A stretch of 55,233 nt of DNA from Parcubacteria bacterium C7867-006 (GTDB taxonomy: Bacteria; Patescibacteriota; Minisyncoccia; Phycocordibacterales; DATDWN01). Shown in pieces: positions 14,264 through 30,677 of the stretch. The notes beneath the pieces were generated by a model. The model searched no databases and was not told where the DNA came from. It worked only from the letters and a program-made list of their open reading frames with translations. The position numbers and the translations under genes were made by a program. Numbering within the stretch: the first letter of the stretch is position 1; the number at the start of each line of letters is the position of its first letter. The stretch covers positions 1 through 55,233 of the forward strand of contig LFCP01000003.1 in the NCBI GenBank assembly GCA_001189155.1, in the 5' to 3' direction.

Positions 14264-15277
14264 ATGGCAATTTTTTCAAGAAAACTGGGGATTGATCTAG
14301 GAACAGCCAATATTTTGGTGTTTGTTCCTGGTCGTGGAATAGTTCTAAATGAACCATCTGTTGTGGCTGTTTCTGAGGAGGACAACAGGATTGTAGCTAT
14401 AGGTATTGAGGCCAAAGAGATGATAGGCAGAACTCCAGACAATATAATAGCTTATCGACCTATGAAAGACGGTGTAATAGCTGACTACAGAGTTACAGAG
14501 GCTATGTTGCGTTACTACATAGATAAGGCTCTTGGAAAATGGAATTTTATTAAACCAGAAGTTTTGGTTTCTGTTCCAGCCGGAGTTACTTCAACAGAAA
14601 GACGGGCTGTGATTGAGGCGGCAATAAGAGCCGGAGCAAAAAATGCTTATGTTGTTAAAGAACCTATTCTTGCTGCTATTGGTGCGGGTATTCCTATTCA
14701 TGAGGCGCTAGGACATATGATAGTTGATATTGGTGGAGGAACCACTGACGTGGCGGTGATTTCTCTTGGAGGTATTGTTGCCTCAACTTCTGTTAAATGT
14801 GCGGGAAATAAAATTGATTATGCTATAGCAGACTATATAAAGAAAACATTTAATCTAGGTATTGGAGATAAAACAGCAGAAGATATAAAAATAAAAGTTG
14901 GTTCTGCAATTCCATTAGACGAAGAACTTTCAATGATGATAAAGGGCCGTGATTTTGTTACGGGACTACCGAGAAGTGTTGAAATAAAAACAAACGAGAT
15001 AGTAAAAGCGATAAGTAAAGATTTGCGAGAAATGATAAAAGCCATAAAAGATGTTTTGCAGGAGACTCCACCAGAGCTTGCTTCAGATATTATTGATCAG
15101 GGAATTATAATGACGGGTGGTTCATCGCAGTTGAGAAACTTTCCAGAATTAGTTTTTAGAAGGACTGGTGTAAAGGCGGTTTTGGCAAAAGACGCACTCT
15201 ATTGTGTTGTGAAAGGGACGGGAATTGCATTGGAACATCTAGACATGTACAAAAAGTCTGTAATCTCAAAGAGATAG
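14264..15277 (+). CDS. mreB: rod shape-determining protein MreB (copy 1)
   Basis: IDLGTANILVFVPGRGIVLNEPSVVAV, DIGGGTTDVAVISLGG, MTGGSSQL. Confidence 0.95.
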   Translation: MAIFSRKLGIDLGTANILVFVPGRGIVLNEPSVVAVSEEDNRIVAIGIEAKEMIGRTPDNIIAYRPMKDGVIADYRVTEAMLRYYIDKALGKWNFIKPEVLVSVPAGVTSTERRAVIEAAIRAGAKNAYVVKEPILAAIGAGIPIHEALGHMIVDIGGGTTDVAVISLGGIVASTSVKCAGNKIDYAIADYIKKTFNLGIGDKTAEDIKIKVGSAIPLDEELSMMIKGRDFVTGLPRSVEIKTNEIVKAISKDLREMIKAIKDVLQETPPELASDIIDQGIIMTGGSSQLRNFPELVFRRTGVKAVLAKDALYCVVKGTGIALEHLDMYKKSVISKR

Positions 15278-19672: not shown

Positions 19673-20734
19673 ATGATTAAAAACCTAGAACAAATCAAAA
19701 GACTGATTTCCAATGATATTGGGATTGATTTGGGCACAGCAAATACTCTCGTTTATCTTCATGGAAAAGGGGTTGTTATAAATGAACCATCTGTTGTGGC
19801 TGTGAACCAGAAAACTGGTAGGGTTGTTGCTGTTGGAAAGGATGCAAAACAAATGCTAGGAAGAACTCCTGGTCATATTGTTGCTGTTAGACCTCTAGTG
19901 GATGGTGTTATCTCAGACTTTGAAGTAACAGAAGAAATGATCACATATCTTTTGAACAAAGCTCAAAAATCAAACAAGAAACTTTTGGGTCCGCGTGTTG
20001 TTGTTGGGGTTCCATCTGGAATCACAAATGTAGAAATCAGAGCAGTAAGAGATGCCACAAAAAATGCTGGTGCATCAGAAGTTTATATTGTGGAGGAACC
20101 TATGGCTGCAGCAATAGGTATGAGACTTCCGATAATGGATCCAGTTGGGAATATGGTTATTGATATTGGTGGTGGAACAACTGATATTGCTGTTATATCT
20201 TTGGGTGGAGTTGTCCGCTCAAAAAATCTCCGTGTTGCTGGTGATAAATTAAACAACGATATCATATCTTATGTTCGTTCAGAGTTTAAAATTTTAATTG
20301 GAGAAAAGACTGCAGAAAATATAAAAATATCTATCGGAGCTATACTTCCTGGAGATGAACCTCTCGAGGCAACTATACGTGGAAGGGATTTGATTTCTGG
20401 TTTACCTAGAGAAGTTGTTATTACAGATTCAGATATTAGAGAGGCTATTAGCCAATCAATTAACACTTTGGTTGATGGGATAAAAGAGGTTTTGGAAACT
20501 ACACCTCCAGAGGTGTTGGCTGATGTTATGCAAAGAGGCATTTTCCTTGCTGGTGGTGGAGCATTGATAAATGGTTTGGCAGAAATAATTCATGAATATA
20601 CAAAAATACCAGTTCATACAGCACTTGATCCTCTGACCGCAGTCTGTCGAGGAACAGGTATAATACTGGAAAATATGGAGCAATATAAAGACGTTCTAAT
20701 TACCAATAAAGATGAATTACCTCCTAAAAAGTAA
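19673..20734 (+). CDS. mreB: rod shape-determining protein MreB (copy 2)
   Basis: IGIDLGTANTLVYLHGKGVVINEPSVVAVNQKTGRVVAVGKDAKQMLGRTP, DIGGGTTDIAVISLGG, LAGGGALINGL. Confidence 0.95.
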   Translation: MIKNLEQIKRLISNDIGIDLGTANTLVYLHGKGVVINEPSVVAVNQKTGRVVAVGKDAKQMLGRTPGHIVAVRPLVDGVISDFEVTEEMITYLLNKAQKSNKKLLGPRVVVGVPSGITNVEIRAVRDATKNAGASEVYIVEEPMAAAIGMRLPIMDPVGNMVIDIGGGTTDIAVISLGGVVRSKNLRVAGDKLNNDIISYVRSEFKILIGEKTAENIKISIGAILPGDEPLEATIRGRDLISGLPREVVITDSDIREAISQSINTLVDGIKEVLETTPPEVLADVMQRGIFLAGGGALINGLAEIIHEYTKIPVHTALDPLTAVCRGTGIILENMEQYKDVLITNKDELPPKK

Positions 20735-23585: not shown

Positions 23586-24044
23586 ATGAAGGATCACGAA
23601 TATTTGACACAGGAAAAATACGACGAATTTAAAAAGGAATTAGAGCTTTTGAAGGGAACAAAAAGAAAGGAAATCGCTGAGTCACTAGAATATGCAAAGC
23701 AACTTGGAGATCTATCTGAGAACGCTGAATATCATGAAGCTAGAGATGCTCAGGCTAATGTAGAGGATAGAATCGCTAAACTAGAACAGCTTTTAAAAAC
23801 AGCATCTATTGTTCAATCAAATCATGGAGGAGTAGTAAATGTTGGTTCAGTTGTAACAGTAGAGAAAGATGGTAAAAAGTTTGAGTACACGATCGTTGGT
23901 TCAGAAGAATCTGATGTTATATCAAATAAGATTTCAATGAGATCTCCATTTGGTCAGGCGATACTTGGGAAGAAAAAAGGAGAAGAATTTACATTCAAGG
24001 CACCATCCGGTGAGCTTAAATACACAGTAAAGGACGTAAAATAG
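23586..24044 (+). CDS. greA: transcription elongation factor GreA
   Basis: YLTQEKYDEFKKELELLK...ARQLGDLSENAEYHEARDAQ-type sequence. Confidence 0.95.
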   Translation: MKDHEYLTQEKYDEFKKELELLKGTKRKEIAESLEYAKQLGDLSENAEYHEARDAQANVEDRIAKLEQLLKTASIVQSNHGGVVNVGSVVTVEKDGKKFEYTIVGSEESDVISNKISMRSPFGQAILGKKKGEEFTFKAPSGELKYTVKDVK

Positions 24045-24051
24045 ATTACAT

Positions 24052-24169
24052 AAAAGGATAACCAGACTCATCTGCGTTGTTGCCGTTCAATTTTATTTGT
24101 TCACCGTACTATTGTACGGCTCACTCATAAAATCTCCGGCGCCTAGCATCTGAGCCCGTTTATCCTTTT
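24052..24169 (+). repeat. palindromic post-stop element (member 1)
   Basis: Terminal IR AAAAGGATAA/TTATCCTTTT; core catctgcgttgttgc..gttcaattttatttgttcaccgtac..gtacggctcactcataaaat..gcgcctagcatct shared with 29240-29364. Confidence 0.85.
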
Positions 24170-24209
24170 CTGTTTGTTCAAAAATATATAAGTGGTAGAA
24201 TAAATAAAT

Positions 24210-25670
24210 ATGGCATCACTAGAAGAAATCAAGCAGGGAAGACTTGCAAAACTACAAATTTTAAAAGATAGAGGCATTAACCCTTACCCAGCGAGAGTCC
24301 CAAGAGATTTTCCTGTTAGTTTTTTAAAAACCAATTTTGATGCACAAGTTGCATCTGGAGATAAAATCTCTGTTGCTGGACGAGTTATGGCTTTGCGTGG
24401 TCAGGGCGCGATACTTTTTGCTGTACTTTTTGATGGAACAGATAGGATTCAAACAATAATCAAAAAAGATTCTTTACCAGAAGATGTTTTTTCTCTTTTT
24501 GTTGATACTGTTGATATTGGTGATTTTGTTTCTGTAACTGGCTTACCTGCACTTTCAAAAACAGGTGAGAAAAGTGTGATAATGGAGTCTTGGGTGATGG
24601 CAAGTAAAACTCTACTTCCTCTTCCAGAAAAATGGCACGGACTTCAGGATACGGACGAGAGATACAGAAAGCGATATCTAGATTTTCTAATGGATGAGGA
24701 TTTGAGAGGTTTGATAATTAAAAAATCGAAATTTTGGGAATCTGTCAGAACATTTTTGAAAGAAAATGACTTTATAGAGGTTGAGACTCCTACGTTGGAA
24801 GTGACAACTGGTGGAGCAGAAGCAAATCCATTTAAAACTCATCATGATGACTATGATATGGATGTGTTTTTGCGTATATCAGTAGGAGAGTTGTGGCAAA
24901 AGAGACTGATGGCTGGAGGATTTTCTAGAACATTTGAAATAGGGCGTGTTTATAGAAACGAGGGCTCAAGTCCAGATCACACTCAAGAGTTTACAAATCT
25001 AGAGTTTTACGCTTCTTTTATGGACTATATAGAGGGTATTCACTTTACTGAGGAGCTTATAAAATACACAGCAAAAGAGACATTTGGAACAATGGATTTT
25101 TCTACTCGCGGACACAGTTTTTCACTTGAAGGTAATTGGCCAAAACTTTCATATGTTGATGTTGTAAAAGAAAAAACTGGAATAGATGTTTTGACTGCAA
25201 GCGCTTCTGAAATGGAAGATAAATTAAAAGAGTTGGGTGTTAAATACGAAGGAAATAATAAAGAGAGATTGACTGATACACTTTGGAAGTACTGCCGAAA
25301 ACAAATCGCTGGTCCAGTTTGGCTTGTTGATGTTCCAAAAATTGTATCACCACTTTCAAAATCAAAAGAGGACAATCCAGAAGTAACAGAGCGTGTTCAG
25401 CTAATACTTGCGGGTTCAGAAATGACAAACGGATTTTCTGAATTAAATGATCCGCTAGATCAAAAAGAAAGATTTGAAAATCAAAAGAAACTTTTGGAGG
25501 GAGGGGACAAAGAAGCTATGATGTCTGACTATGAATTTGTGGAGATGCTTGAATATGGAATGCCTCCTACATTTGGTTTTGGGATGGGAGAGAGATTATT
25601 TGCGTTTCTTGCCGATAAACCTCTTCGTGAGTTACAAGCCTTTCCTCTTATGAGACCAAAATCTGATTAA
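24210..25670 (+). CDS. lysS: lysyl-tRNA synthetase (class II)
   Basis: [54 protein letters not shown]-terminal motif 3 [12 protein letters not shown]. Confidence 0.93.
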
Positions 25671-25685
25671 ATAACAGCTCAAATT

Positions 25686-25712
25686 AGCCCCACCACACGG
25701 TGGGGCTTTTTT
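25686..25712 (+). terminator. Rho-independent terminator
   Basis: agccccaccacacggtggggcttttttg. Confidence 0.9.
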
Positions 25713-25747
25713 GAATATAGTTATCCACTTTTTTGTGGGAGATTTTG

Positions 25748-25801
25748 TTGGACAGTGGGATGAAGTGGTATATAATGTTAGGCAAGTGGGAAGTAGTGGG
25801 A
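25748..25801 (+). promoter_or_regulatory. mraZ promoter with phased MraZ-box repeats
   Basis: TTGGAC-17 nt-TATAAT; TGGGA at 25756, TGGTA at 25766, TGGGA at 25787 and 25797 (10-nt phasing). Confidence 0.8.
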
Positions 25802-25817
25802 AATAAAAAATACGAAA

Positions 25818-26252
25818 ATGTTCATAGGAGAATATACACACACCATCGATGATAAAAACAGACTCTCGCTTCCAGCGAAGTTTCGTTCGGAGATGGGGAA
25901 AAAAGTTGTGGTAACTCCAGGACTTGATGCTTGTCTTTTTGTTTTCACACAAAAAGAGTGGAGCAAGATTGAAGAAAAATTAAACCAATCTTCACTTCTA
26001 CAAGCAGACAACCGAAGTTTCAACCGTTTTATGTTTGCCGGTGCGGTTGAGGCGGAGATAGATTCCATTGGACGTATTTTGATTCCAGATTTCCTTCGAG
26101 ATCGTGCAAATTTGAAAAGCAAAGTTGTTGTGATTGGAGTTTCAAGTCGAGTTGAGTTATGGAACGAGAAGACTTGGACAGATTACAAGAAAGTTGTTGA
26201 AAAGCAGGCCGATACATTAGCTGAGAAACTCGGCCAAGTAGGCGTCCTGTAA
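25818..26252 (+). CDS. mraZ: transcriptional regulator MraZ
   Basis: MFIGEYTHTIDDKNRLSLPAKFRSEM...AVEAEIDSIGRILIPDFLRDRANL. Confidence 0.95.
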   Translation: MFIGEYTHTIDDKNRLSLPAKFRSEMGKKVVVTPGLDACLFVFTQKEWSKIEEKLNQSSLLQADNRSFNRFMFAGAVEAEIDSIGRILIPDFLRDRANLKSKVVVIGVSSRVELWNEKTWTDYKKVVEKQADTLAEKLGQVGVL

Positions 26253-26253
26253 C

Positions 26254-27147
26254 ATGATCCACAAAACTGTTCTTTTACATGAATCAATAGATGGATTGGA
26301 TATCAAAAATGGCGACATTTTTGTTGATGGTACTTTGGGTGGCGGTGGCCATTGCGAGGAGGTAGCTAAAAGGTTTGGCGATTCCGTTGTCATGATCGGA
26401 ATTGACCTTGATCCTGAGGCTATAGAGCGTGCCTCTGCACGATTATCTCCTTTGGAGCCTAACATACGCTATACAGAGGGTAGTTTCCGTAATATTGATA
26501 CTATTCTGGACTCAATGGGTCTAGAAAAGGTAGATAAAATATTGCTGGATATTGGTCTCTCATCAAATCAGTTTGAGGATTCTGGTAGGGGGTTTTCTTT
26601 TCAGAAAGATGAACCTCTGATTATGTCTTTCAAGAAAAACTTGAAACCAGAAGACTTAACAGCAAAAGAGATTGTTAACACTTGGGATTTGGAAAATATA
26701 GGAGCTATTCTCAAAGGTTATGGTGAAGAGCAGTTTGCTTGGAAAATCGCAAAGGCAATCGTTGCAAGAAGAGAGATAAAGCCAATAGAAACTACAACAG
26801 ATTTGGTGGAGATAATAAAAATCGCTACTCCAAAATGGTATCACCACAAAAAAATCCATCCAGCTACAAAAACTTTTCAGGCTCTCCGTATCACAGTAAA
26901 TGATGAGATTGAGAGTTTGAAAGAGGGAATTGTAAAAGGTTTTGAAAGACTAAACTCCAAAGGTAGGTTAGCCGTTATATCTTTCCACAGTATAGAAGAT
27001 AGAGCGGTCAAGAATTTTTATAAAAGTAAGAGTGATGAAAAAGTTGGAAAGATTATTACAAAAAAACCAATCATACCAACTGATATAGAGATAAAAGAAA
27101 ATCCTAGATCAAGAAGTGCCAAGCTAAGAATAATTGAAAAAATATAA
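26254..27147 (+). CDS. rsmH: 16S rRNA m4C1402 methyltransferase RsmH
   Basis: HKTVLLHESIDGL, FVDGTLGGGGH, ILLDIGLSSNQFEDSGRGFSF, HPATKTFQALRI. Confidence 0.95.
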   Translation: MIHKTVLLHESIDGLDIKNGDIFVDGTLGGGGHCEEVAKRFGDSVVMIGIDLDPEAIERASARLSPLEPNIRYTEGSFRNIDTILDSMGLEKVDKILLDIGLSSNQFEDSGRGFSFQKDEPLIMSFKKNLKPEDLTAKEIVNTWDLENIGAILKGYGEEQFAWKIAKAIVARREIKPIETTTDLVEIIKIATPKWYHHKKIHPATKTFQALRITVNDEIESLKEGIVKGFERLNSKGRLAVISFHSIEDRAVKNFYKSKSDEKVGKIITKKPIIPTDIEIKENPRSRSAKLRIIEKI

Positions 27148-27469
27148 ACCAAACGAAATGAAAGAAAAAATATTACAATTAAATAACGAAAAAACTATAT
27201 TCTGGGCTGTTTTAGGTGCATTATTCTTATGTATAGGTTTTTATATGTATTTTATAAATGCGACAGTTCACAACGTTGTTGCTAGACAGAATTTGGAAAG
27301 TGAAGCTTCAAATCTAACTCTAAAAATCGGAAATCAAGAGTTCCAATACATAACAAGTAGGAATAATGTAACAATGCAACTTGCATTATCTATGGGATTC
27401 AAAGAAGTAACAGCTAAAACTTTTATTTCAAAGAATTCAAACAAACAAGTTTCATTTGCTACTCGATAA
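27134..27469 (+). CDS. ftsL: FtsL-like small bitopic membrane protein (start may be 27158)
   Basis: One TM, position between rsmH and ftsI. Confidence 0.5.
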   Translation: MKKYKPNEMKEKILQLNNEKTIFWAVLGALFLCIGFYMYFINATVHNVVARQNLESEASNLTLKIGNQEFQYITSRNNVTMQLALSMGFKEVTAKTFISKNSNKQVSFATR

Positions 27470-27544
27470 TATATTTTGTTCAACCTTTATCGTTTTTGTA
27501 TTCGGCAGTTTTTTGATAAACTATAAACTGCTTTAATTTTTAAT

Positions 27545-29251
27545 ATGAATTATAGTTATATTTCCAGAATTCGGTTAATTTCTCTATCAATCTTTTTATT
27601 TGCTATTTTGCTAATAGGAAGACTGTACATTCTTCAAATCGTCAAAAACGATAACTATACAACGAAAGCTGATAGACAGTATGCCTCATCTGCAAATAAA
27701 ACTTTCAGTAGAGGTACTATATATTTCAAAAACAAAGATAACACTTTAGTTTCTGCTGCTACGCTGAAGTCGGGTTTTATTATCGCCATTAACCCACAAA
27801 TACTTGTTAATCCAGAGGATGTTTATAGCAAAATCAAAGATATCATACCAGTAGAGCATGATGTTTTTATAGCAAAAGCATCAAAAAAGAATGATCCGTA
27901 TGAGGAGATAGCTACTCACGTAGATCTTGATATTGGTCAGAAAATATTAGATTTAAATATAAAAGGACTACAAGCGTATAAAGAAAAGTGGAGGTTTTAT
28001 CCTGGAGGAGATACAGCGTCGCATTTGTTAGGAATACTAGGTTACAAAGGTGATGAGTATGCCGGAAGATATGGTTTGGAGAGACAATATGAAAGTTTGC
28101 TTGAGAGAAAAGATGGTGCATATATAAACTTTTTTGCAGAGATGTTTTCTGACATAAAAGCAGCAGCCGCACCAACAGAGGAAAATGAGGGAGATGTTGT
28201 TACCACTATTGAACCTACAGTACAAACTTTTTTTCAAAGTATTTTGGCTAGTACTACAGAAAAATGGAGTTCAGAGTTAACTGGAGGAATTATTATGGAC
28301 CCAAAAACTGGGGAGATTATTGCTATGGAGACTTTTCCAACATTTGATCCGAATAAACCAGAAGAACAAAAAAATGTAAGGATTTTCTCTAACCCACTTG
28401 TTGAGAATGTGTATGAAATGGGTTCTATTATAAAACCCCTAACAGTTGCTGCTGGTATAGATGCTGGAGTTATCACAGCCAAATCAACTTACTACGATAA
28501 GGGTTACGTTATCATAAATAACAAAAAAGTTTCTAACTTTGATGGTAAGGAAAGAGGTATTGTTAGTATGCAGGATGTGCTTTCTCAGTCACTAAACGTT
28601 GGTGCTGCTCATGTGGAAAGTTTATTGGGTAATAAAAGATTTGCTGATTATATGTTTGCCTATGGTCTGGGAGAAAAAACTGGAGTAGAACTTCCAAATG
28701 AGGCGAGAGATCTTATTGATAATCTAAAAGGAAATATTGATATTGATTTTGCTTCAGCATCTTTCGGGCAGGGTATCGCTCTCACCCCAGTTGCAACTAT
28801 CAGAGCTCTTGCAACCATTGCAAACGGTGGCTATCTAGTGCAACCGCATATAGTAAAAAGTTTAAATTACAAAATTGGTGTATCAAAAAATACTCCAATA
28901 GATAATGGTCGTATAGTTTTGAAAAGAGAAACTACAGAGGAGGTTGCTAGGATGATGACGTATAGTGTGGACCATGTTTTATCTAACGGATCTTTGAGTT
29001 TGCCAAACTATAGTGTGGCGGCTAAAACAGGTACAGCCCAGATTGCCAAAGATGGCGGGGGCGGGTATTATGACGACAAATTCGTGCACACATTTATTGG
29101 GTTTTTCCCATCATATAACCCTAGATTTATAGTGTTTCTGTACACGGTCAATCCAAGGGGTGCACGGTTTGGTTCAGAGACGCTGACGCATCCGTATATG
29201 GATATGGTTAAGTTTCTAATAAACTATTACGAAATACCGCCTGATCGTTAA
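27545..29251 (+). CDS. ftsI: peptidoglycan transpeptidase FtsI/PBP3-like
   Basis: FSRGTIYFKNKDN, YEMGSIIKPLTVAAGID, SQSLNVGAAHV, AAKTGTAQIA. Confidence 0.88.
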   Translation: MNYSYISRIRLISLSIFLFAILLIGRLYILQIVKNDNYTTKADRQYASSANKTFSRGTIYFKNKDNTLVSAATLKSGFIIAINPQILVNPEDVYSKIKDIIPVEHDVFIAKASKKNDPYEEIATHVDLDIGQKILDLNIKGLQAYKEKWRFYPGGDTASHLLGILGYKGDEYAGRYGLERQYESLLERKDGAYINFFAEMFSDIKAAAAPTEENEGDVVTTIEPTVQTFFQSILASTTEKWSSELTGGIIMDPKTGEIIAMETFPTFDPNKPEEQKNVRIFSNPLVENVYEMGSIIKPLTVAAGIDAGVITAKSTYYDKGYVIINNKKVSNFDGKERGIVSMQDVLSQSLNVGAAHVESLLGNKRFADYMFAYGLGEKTGVELPNEARDLIDNLKGNIDIDFASASFGQGIALTPVATIRALATIANGGYLVQPHIVKSLNYKIGVSKNTPIDNGRIVLKRETTEEVARMMTYSVDHVLSNGSLSLPNYSVAAKTGTAQIAKDGGGGYYDDKFVHTFIGFFPSYNPRFIVFLYTVNPRGARFGSETLTHPYMDMVKFLINYYEIPPDR

Positions 29252-29364
29252 AATTATTTCATCTGCGTTGTTGCAGTTCAATTTTGTTCGTTCACCGTAC
29301 TATATGTACGGCTCGCTCACAAAATCTTCTGCGCCTAGCATCTAAAACAATTTTAACGATCAGG
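29240..29364 (+). repeat. palindromic post-stop element (member 2)
   Basis: Outer arms CCTGATCGTTAAAATT (29240-29255, overlaps the ftsI stop codon) / AATTTTAACGATCAGG (29349-29364); core as in 24052-24169. Confidence 0.88.
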
Positions 29365-29378
29365 AAACATTTATTTTT

Positions 29379-30677
29379 ATGGATTATCTAAAACAAATAG
29401 CAAAGCAGGCTTTAAAGTATGAAGCCAAGTTGGTTTTAAAAAAATATAAACCAAAGGTTGTTGCTATAACAGGTAGTGTTGGAAAAACTCTAACAAAAGA
29501 AGCCGTCTATCATGTTTTATCTAAAAATTTTTTTGTAAGGCGAAGCGGAAAAAGTTTTACAGCGGAGCTCGGCATCCCTCTAGCTATTATTGGTTGTGGA
29601 GAGGGTGTTGGAAGTGTATTTCAATTAATAAAAAATCTATTATTCGGTTTGCGAGTGATACTAACAAAGTCCAATTATCCGCAGTGGCTTATTTTGGAAG
29701 TGGATGGAGACAAGCCAGGAGACTTGGAGGCTGTTAGTTCAATGATAAAACCGGATATGGTTGTGATTACTGCTATCGGAGAGACTCCATCACATATAGA
29801 AATGTTTGGTGATCTTGAAACATTTTTGAATGAGAAAAAAGCTATGGTGGACTCTGTCCGTTTCGGTGGAGCTGTTATTTATAACGCAGACGACTCTATT
29901 ACTTTAGAGCTCTCAAAAAGTTCAAAAGTCAGAACGGTATCTGTTGGTGTTCTAAACGGTTCTCAAATCTCTGGTACAGAGTTTGAAATCCTATACGGCA
30001 GTGGTAAAACAGGTTCTGTTCCAACAGGAATGTCTTTTTCAATAAAATATAAAAATGAAGTTTTTCCAATAAATATTTTTGAAACAATCGGCATCCAAAA
30101 TCAATACGCCATACTGCTGGCTTTTGCTGTTGGACTTGAGTTTGGACTCCCCGCATCACAAATAGTTAACTCCCTCGGTAAATACAGTGCTCTACCAGGT
30201 AGGATGAGACTTGTTCCTGGAGTAAAAGATACTTTGATTATAGATGACTCATACAACTCTTCGCCTATTGCGATAGAGGAATCAATAAGAGTTTTGAAGG
30301 ATATAAAATCGGTAGATAAAAAAATCGCTGTTATAGGAGATATGTTAGAACTTGGTCGTTTCTCAGCTATAGAACATAGGAGAGTGGCTGAACTTTTGAA
30401 CGGAGTGGCAACTGACGTGATATGTATTGGAATCAGAGCTAGAAAAATTGTCGATGAGCTACTGAACTATGGATTTCCGGAGTCAAAAATAATTTCATTT
30501 GATACGGCCGATGAGGCTCAGGGTTATTTGCAAAATTTAATAAACGAAGGGGATATTATTTTGATAAAAGGTTCCCAAGCTATGCGAATGGAAAAAATTG
30601 TTGAGGAGGTGATGAGATACCCGCAGGATAAGAATAAGGTGTTGGTACGACAGGAGGAGGAATGGAAGGGGAGGTAG
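29379..30677 (+). CDS. murF: UDP-N-acetylmuramoyl-tripeptide--D-Ala-D-Ala ligase (MurF family)
   Basis: AITGSVGKTLTKEAVYHVLS, DDSYNSSPIAIEESIRVL, VIGDMLELG. Confidence 0.88.
   Translation: MDYLKQIAKQALKYEAKLVLKKYKPKVVAITGSVGKTLTKEAVYHVLSKNFFVRRSGKSFTAELGIPLAIIGCGEGVGSVFQLIKNLLFGLRVILTKSNYPQWLILEVDGDKPGDLEAVSSMIKPDMVVITAIGETPSHIEMFGDLETFLNEKKAMVDSVRFGGAVIYNADDSITLELSKSSKVRTVSVGVLNGSQISGTEFEILYGSGKTGSVPTGMSFSIKYKNEVFPINIFETIGIQNQYAILLAFAVGLEFGLPASQIVNSLGKYSALPGRMRLVPGVKDTLIIDDSYNSSPIAIEESIRVLKDIKSVDKKIAVIGDMLELGRFSAIEHRRVAELLNGVATDVICIGIRARKIVDELLNYGFPESKIISFDTADEAQGYLQNLINEGDIILIKGSQAMRMEKIVEEVMRYPQDKNKVLVRQEEEWKGR

Follow-up and report, generated by a model that had tools for sequence, protein, structure and literature searches.

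The window, which is the whole stretch of 55,233 nucleotides that was analysed, is contig 3 of the 674 kb, 98% complete genome of Parcubacteria bacterium C7867-006. It carries two related palindromic elements, each placed behind a protein-coding gene. Copy 1 (24049..24172, structured strand minus) lies 3' of greA (23586..24044, plus strand), a gene taken from the ORF list with orthologs in 12/12 genus genomes, and is followed by lysS (24210..25670, plus strand). Copy 2 (29240..29364, structured strand minus) lies 3' of ftsI, which encodes a penicillin-binding protein (27545..29251, plus strand) and whose end forms the left arm; a gene for a murF-like ligase (29379..30677, plus strand) begins 14 nt past the right arm. 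In cmsearch, a covariance model matched copy 1 at 24048-24173 (126.3 bits, E=1.5e-30) and copy 2 at 29239-29365 (135.5 bits, E=5.8e-33).

The spans of the copies were measured by counting outward from the innermost TGC/GCA pair. The left arm of copy 1 (24049..24072; arm positions 24 to 1) holds AAAAGGATAA, starts 5 nt past the greA stop codon and was delimited by outward pairing without gaps. The conserved core that follows (TGCGTTGTTG ... CGCCTAGCA; 24073..24148, minus strand) is an imperfect palindrome whose internal loops are rich in GA when read on the minus strand, and the right arm (24149..24172), which holds TTATCCTTTT, is missing from the empty greA-lysS junctions of relatives. In copy 2, the left arm (29240..29263) comprises the final ftsI codons (..P D R), the stop TAA and then AATTATTTCATC, the stop (29249-29251) occupying arm positions 15-13. 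Behind the core (29264..29340, minus strand), inverted-repeat detection delimited a right arm (29341..29364) in which AATTTTAACGATCAGG repeats the end of ftsI in inverted form, and this arm is missing in relatives without an intact element.

An earlier note on this DNA had described two elements after greA and ftsI with a shared core, and the two cores, each of ~85 nt, indeed align at 91% identity over 84 nt (BLAST, E = 3e-27). It had located the greA copy correctly, with bounds (24052-24169) slightly narrower than the actual pairing, which runs with mismatches from 24049 to 24172. The compensatory changes that it listed, T-A to G-C and T-A to C-G, are both present in the sequence, and the outer stems are locus-specific and self-complementary at both elements, as it had stated.

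Spread and insertion sites

When the source genome was searched with BLAST, only the two window copies appeared as strong matches. A covariance model built on 35 Paceibacterota copies recovered eight copies at E<1e-3 and ten at E<0.1 in the same genome, which marks the BLAST result as an artefact of low sensitivity. Copies were present in 10/11 same-genus relatives, and the covariance model detected them in 39/99 relatives, with maxima of 27 in G003, 25 in G008 and 22 in G011; the further copies that the earlier note had proposed to look for thus exist in both the genome and its relatives. A pattern scan of GTDB species genomes returned at least 118 loci spread over several phyla. Host groups among the listed loci were Paceibacterota, Negativicutes (Sporomusa, Pelosinus, Anaerospora, Selenomonadales), Desulfobacterota/Geobacteraceae/Smithella, Pseudomonas, Gallionella, Nitrospira, Acidobacteria, Chloroflexi/Dormibacterota and single MAGs from other groups. 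The element reaches streamlined CPR genomes, and copy number in 20 genomes outside the relatives set, from groups such as Negativicutes, Desulfobacterota, Pseudomonas, Acidobacteria, Chloroflexi and Nitrospira, ranged from 1 up to 124 per genome, the highest among those searched.

The phage and plasmid collections searched contained zero copies, and IMG/VR gave just two matches, both lacking arms or structure and attributed to chance, with no convincing viral copy. No Rfam family matched at the gathering score, either at the window elements or in 16 loci from other phyla, and none of six core strings was found in the literature text searched. The family is apparently an undescribed and very widespread group of small mobile DNA elements located immediately behind genes. 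No within-species insertion was caught, so mobility is read from presence and absence between species.

Comparison of the copies shows a dispersed, ancient and structure-conserved element, without cargo in the loci examined. No cargo-bearing copy was found among these loci (1.96 Mb), and unpaired half sites in the 1.96 Mb either had a diverged partner nearby, were truncated or were due to chance. Clusters of neighbouring genes mostly represented orthologous loci of related species, and no transposase-like family was recognised as a recurrent neighbour in the unannotated gene clusters.

With genes of at least 100 codons counted as upstream neighbours, a same-strand gene stop lay within 60 nt upstream of 34/40 Paceibacterota copies and 62/96 copies in other phyla. 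The opposite arrangement was found in 9/40 and 21/96, respectively, and the figure for random points was 8%. Stop codons fall mainly at positions 15 and 21-28 of the arm, and hairpins are placed even inside essential operons (ftsI-murF). The orientation bias could reflect a mechanism tied to the coding strand of the gene, or selection against the stronger hairpin in mRNA.

Origin of the outer arms

Among Paceibacterota copies with cores at least 95% identical, outer-arm identity was ~0.5, equal to that among copies with cores 80-95% identical. Two copies from one genome (L142 and L147) have 97% identical cores and arms alike at 2/8, both arm sets being self-complementary, and three Selenomonadales copies, again from one genome, combine cores of ~97% identity with unrelated arms such as GAAACTGCTAGGAAG/CTTCCTAGCAGTTTC. 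Core identity among copies with unrelated self-complementary outer arms ranged from 96 to 99%, which indicates that the arms are formed when a copy inserts; slow compensatory evolution would not readily yield such arms. Perfect outer arms also exceeded expectation (10 vs 3.4 expected; 36 vs 17.7), as expected if arms begin perfect and then decay.

The arms end at a sharp boundary. Self-pairing in Paceibacterota stays at ~0.75-0.85 out to position 24 and falls to background within one or two bases, so that pairing ends at 24-25 there; in other phyla it ends at 21-23. The arms of different copies, where variable, pair mutually at only ~0.3 (source genus/phylum). Many copies in Negativicutes and Desulfobacterota have a common arm consensus, GGCYGTTGA, which suggests that in these groups some of the arm moves together with the element or that a target is preferred, and the extent of arm copying is less certain there.

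Orthologous sites separate the two arms. In eight orthologs that lack an intact element, among them those at the empty sites of G004 and G003, the ftsI product ends in ...PPDR* or differs from this by one residue. The end of ftsI is therefore the same with or without the element, which identifies the left arm as native and the right arm as a copy, and which bears out the earlier description of the left arm as the gene's own last codons and stop. Among element-bearing genes having a match in the element-poor G004, counted by hand from the comparison, 24/29 end at the codon at which the G004 gene ends, or one codon away, and no comparable hairpin was found behind the matching genes at its empty sites. 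In five to seven of these, the final three codons and the stop fall in the arm and recur in mirrored form in the right arm. Most relatives are without the element at the same genes, and without a substitute hairpin. The greA-lysS copy is kept at the orthologous locus in three species, and element remnants occupy the ftsI site in G002 and G010, indicating that copies also decay. Comparison of orthologous loci lacking the element, which the earlier note had recommended, shows a native left arm and a new right arm, which is of fixed length and absent at empty sites.

Taken together, these data favour, at a rough probability of 0.57, a non-autonomous mobile hairpin of ~125 nt that inserts behind stop codons in one orientation and whose right arm is copied from the flank. 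The suggestion made beforehand that insertion generates inverted copies of host sequence gains support from the native left arms and from the near-identical cores with unrelated self-complementary arms.

It is rather unlikely, by comparison, that the core with short arms transposes ordinarily and that template switching within the palindrome during replication later lengthens and homogenises the arms, the right flank being overwritten by an inverted copy of the left flank with no special insertion chemistry. Template-switch tracts would be expected to vary in length, whereas at dozens of unrelated loci pairing stops no more than one or two bases from position 24, and very similar cores already bear fully site-matched arms. 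Such switching at inverted repeats is nevertheless documented, and perfect stems are possible in one event (PMC8794818, PMC8604942). Orthologous copies with matched arm changes, TAA/TTA vs TGA/TCA in L036 and L022, also agree with it, and on this ground template switching may still maintain arms after insertion.

Within the mobile-hairpin reading, the family, its structure, the two kinds of arm and the fixed length are observed, and an enzyme, an intermediate and a snap-back step are inferred. The travelling part would be the conserved core with the inner arms (~105 nt in the source genus). Its structured strand would be the antisense one relative to the upstream gene, in the form of ssDNA or RNA, two intermediates that cannot be told apart by sequence alone. 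The element would land just behind or abutting a stop codon, nearly always in one orientation, with no change to the host sequence of the left outer arm, which often holds the final codons and the stop. By the most likely route, the 3' end of the host coding strand (the 3'-OH of the gene end) would be joined to, or would prime, the element strand; the far end of this strand would then fold back on the palindrome in a snap-back step, be extended by copying ~10 nt of single-stranded host flank, and be sealed to the downstream side. The right outer arm would be an inverted copy of the left flank made at insertion, with copying ending at a boundary fixed at 24 nt from the inner stem in the source phylum and at 22-23 nt in other phyla. 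The abrupt boundary would be accounted for if the single-stranded overhang had a fixed length.

A bacterial SINE-like retroelement is an improbable form of this scheme, in which a structured antisense RNA would be reverse-transcribed from the 3' end of the nicked gene end, and the cDNA would snap back and copy a fixed length of single-stranded target, every insertion rebuilding its own outer arm from the host. If true, it would represent a new transposition outcome common to many phyla, including CPR bacteria. Reverse transcriptase (RVT_1) showed no association with the element, being present in 19/39 element-positive vs 29/60 element-negative relatives, and is absent from several high-copy genomes. 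The Y1 transposase (PF01797) is absent from G000, G003 (27 copies), G006 (18) and G015 (18), and mobilisation by Y1/RAYT was rejected because the transposase is absent from high-copy genomes. Neither Y1_Tnp nor RVT_1 follows the distribution of the element closely, and neither enzyme is required in the host.

No consistent direct repeat was found at the arm ends that would represent a target-site duplication. A few flanks share direct repeats, e.g., 24 nt at L063, a locus that adjoins a normal terminator. Insertion into the loop of a pre-existing terminator was rejected, since a hairpin of that kind is missing from the empty sites of relatives. Should the arm indeed be copied at insertion, the element would gain an inverted target copy of fixed length in place of a direct target-site duplication, a mobile-element outcome of which we found no description. 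The many natural pairs of empty and filled sites are usable for identifying the enzyme.

Fold, covariation and the structured strand

RNA folding gave z values of -6.2 for copy 1 and -8.1 for copy 2, and 0 shuffles folded equally well. Across the 35 Paceibacterota copies, 40/50 structure pairs changed on both sides, vs 30.5 +/- 2.1 in shuffles, and the covariation that the earlier note had expected was recovered with a score of 0.465 vs 0.165 shuffled (slid-structure controls, 0.10-0.14). A warning attaches to such data: 'compensatory' stem changes can stem from copying and not from RNA selection.

The two strands differ in folding. Relative to the upstream gene, the antisense strand is the better folder in 35/35 copies with RNA parameters (mean folding energy -54.3 vs -40.4 kcal/mol for the sense strand) and in 34/35 with DNA parameters. 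Mismatches point to the same strand, an A.C on one strand being a G.U or G.T on the opposite one. In the inner arms, top-strand A.C vs G.T mismatches numbered 66:11 in Paceibacterota (p = 1e-10) and 124:18 in other phyla (p = 1e-20), and flanks beyond the arms showed no bias (51:58 and 117:130). The A.C excess in the outer arms was modest (25:15, p = 0.15, and 46:16), which makes some post-insertion selection on structure likely. On the antisense strand, the conserved C.T/T.C positions read as tandem G.A. Based on the better fold in every copy and the A.C bias, the functional hairpin is most likely that of the antisense strand, as RNA or ssDNA, and not that of the mRNA of the upstream gene.

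This argues against a terminator or RNA-processing hairpin in the upstream mRNA, which the earlier note had offered as its second possibility. We regard it as quite improbable that the element is a host-beneficial 3'-end hairpin, selected to stop or protect transcripts, with arms kept by compensatory mutation. Such selection would fit the strong post-stop bias in one orientation, the covariation and the retention at some orthologous loci, as at greA-lysS in its three species, yet it would act on an mRNA-sense strand that is the worse folder in all 35 copies, with mismatches tolerated only by the opposite strand. In the upstream-gene transcript, no U-tract terminator was found at the element ends, the only match being an internal one of 5 bp at 29263-29276, and the 14 nt between the ftsI element and the start of murF are too little for a promoter. 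The same genes in most relatives do without the element or any other hairpin, and slow compensation cannot put unrelated arms on nearly identical cores.

Relation to known repeats

Integron attC sites resemble the element in that they follow stop codons in a fixed orientation and have one active folded strand with conserved mismatches. Their layout is the reverse, with conserved outer boxes and a variable inside, whereas the element is conserved inside and variable in its outer arms. Like MITEs, the element is short, non-coding, dispersed, intergenic and variable in copy number, but terminal inverted repeats common to copies are lacking in the source genus, and elsewhere the GGCYGTTGA arm is only partly shared. 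The arms of some subfamilies resemble what we take to be transposon ends (TAGGACTTACGCA, GGCTGTTGAAAAA), which counts in favour of a known class. Membership in such a class, whether REP/RAYT repeats, a DDE-transposase MITE with terminal repeats or an integron attC-like site, is nevertheless highly improbable, for the likeness to ERIC, RPE and REP in size, intergenic place and stop-codon contribution (PMC2229807, PMC3733652) is set against the missing GTAG/CGTC tag, the absence of Y1_Tnp from genomes with 18-27 copies, outer arms unshared in the source genus, no regular duplication, a conserved part that lies inside and not at the outer ends, and no Rfam match.

In its working, the element is most like ERIC, RPE and REP, which are small, palindromic, intergenic and often stop-contributing (PMC2229807, PMC3733652, PMC10969869); its new property relative to known repeats is the copied target arm. 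ERIC/IRU sequences share near-equal length, an imperfect palindrome, multi-copy and intergenic occurrence and non-autonomy, and a further likeness is that they are co-transcribed and that their effect on upstream mRNA depends on how they are oriented (PMC2229807). ERIC is a 127 bp, MITE-like sequence with fixed 7-bp terminal repeats, target-site duplication and TA at its termini (PMC2229807), whereas the element has locus-specific outer arms that correspond to the end of the host gene, lacks a regular duplication and has hosts in many phyla. REP sequences (GTAG/CGTC) are likewise palindromic, lie near 3' gene ends and are considered mobile; they can supply a stop codon to flanking ORFs and have G-T pairs in their stems (PMC3733652). 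They differ in being 20-40 bp long, with a GTAG or CGTC tag and, for the GTAG type, a Y1 transposase, whereas the element is ~125 nt, does not require Y1 and has no tag at the pairing end or core end in the CPR and cross-phylum consensus.

Rickettsia palindromic elements, RUP, Correia/NEMIS and Chunjie of Geobacter are, like the element, dispersed and geneless, at ~100-235 bp (PMC2229807, PMC10969869). These palindromic MITEs have terminal inverted repeats or long stem-loops and most insert with TA/TIR signatures; for small palindromic MITEs, we found no report of an arm copied from the target. Intergenic palindromic 'multicopy nucleotide sequences', unnamed and unexplained, have been described in Geobacter (PMC2996986). 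Geobacteraceae also host the present family, and the Geobacter sequences, likened here by description alone, might include it.

Element turnover behind ftsI and at a second locus

Remnants of the element were detected behind ftsI in two relatives of the window genome, at loci L178 (genome G002) and L185 (genome G010), in the forms AATTAGTTCGTCTGCCCG and CCCATCTGC-deletion-ATTTAGCATCTGAGG. These remnants show that both relatives have lost the core at the ftsI site, where the window genome retains the element. The 3′ end of ftsI in a third relative, G008 (contig C11, locus L181), carries a different hairpin from locus position ~2151, whose self-complementary arms of 19–20 nt begin immediately 3′ of the stop codon; the conserved core of the element was not seen in it. 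This hairpin may belong to another family that behaves in the same way, or it may be a strongly altered version of the element.

At L046 (G002, contig C11, reverse strand, ~1880), a variant element, GCATTTCGTTGTTGG...CCGCCTAGAACTGC, has perfect 18-nt arms that include the TAG stop. An older copy has had its left half replaced by this variant, and its right half persists downstream.

Divergent copies and shared arms

The genome to which the window belongs contains divergent copies at other sites (L248–L255), for example with arms AAAACTCGTAAATCTG/CAGATTTACGAGTTTT, which were detectable only with the covariance model. In subfamilies of related genera, the arms are common to several copies (L208, L211, L212, L214, L215, L249, and L252), and we take these shared arms to resemble transposon ends (TAGGACTTACGCA, AACTTCCAAATTTGG).

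Gene context in Pseudomonas and a flanking direct repeat

Several Pseudomonas species share a similar gene context around the element (L057, L061, L091, L096, L097, L100, L127, and L152), indicating that it can be passed on vertically over long periods. The P. straminea genome yielded a single covariance-model hit. The element at L063 adjoins a normal intrinsic terminator, the hairpin of which flanks the element on either side as a direct repeat (23/24 nt), possibly a long target duplication.

A related ORF pair in the window

Two related ORFs of similar sequence, presumably MreB/FtsA-like as judged by eye, lie ~5 kb apart at 14264–15277 and 19673–20734, sharing 77% identity over 83 nt near their start (repeat family D2).
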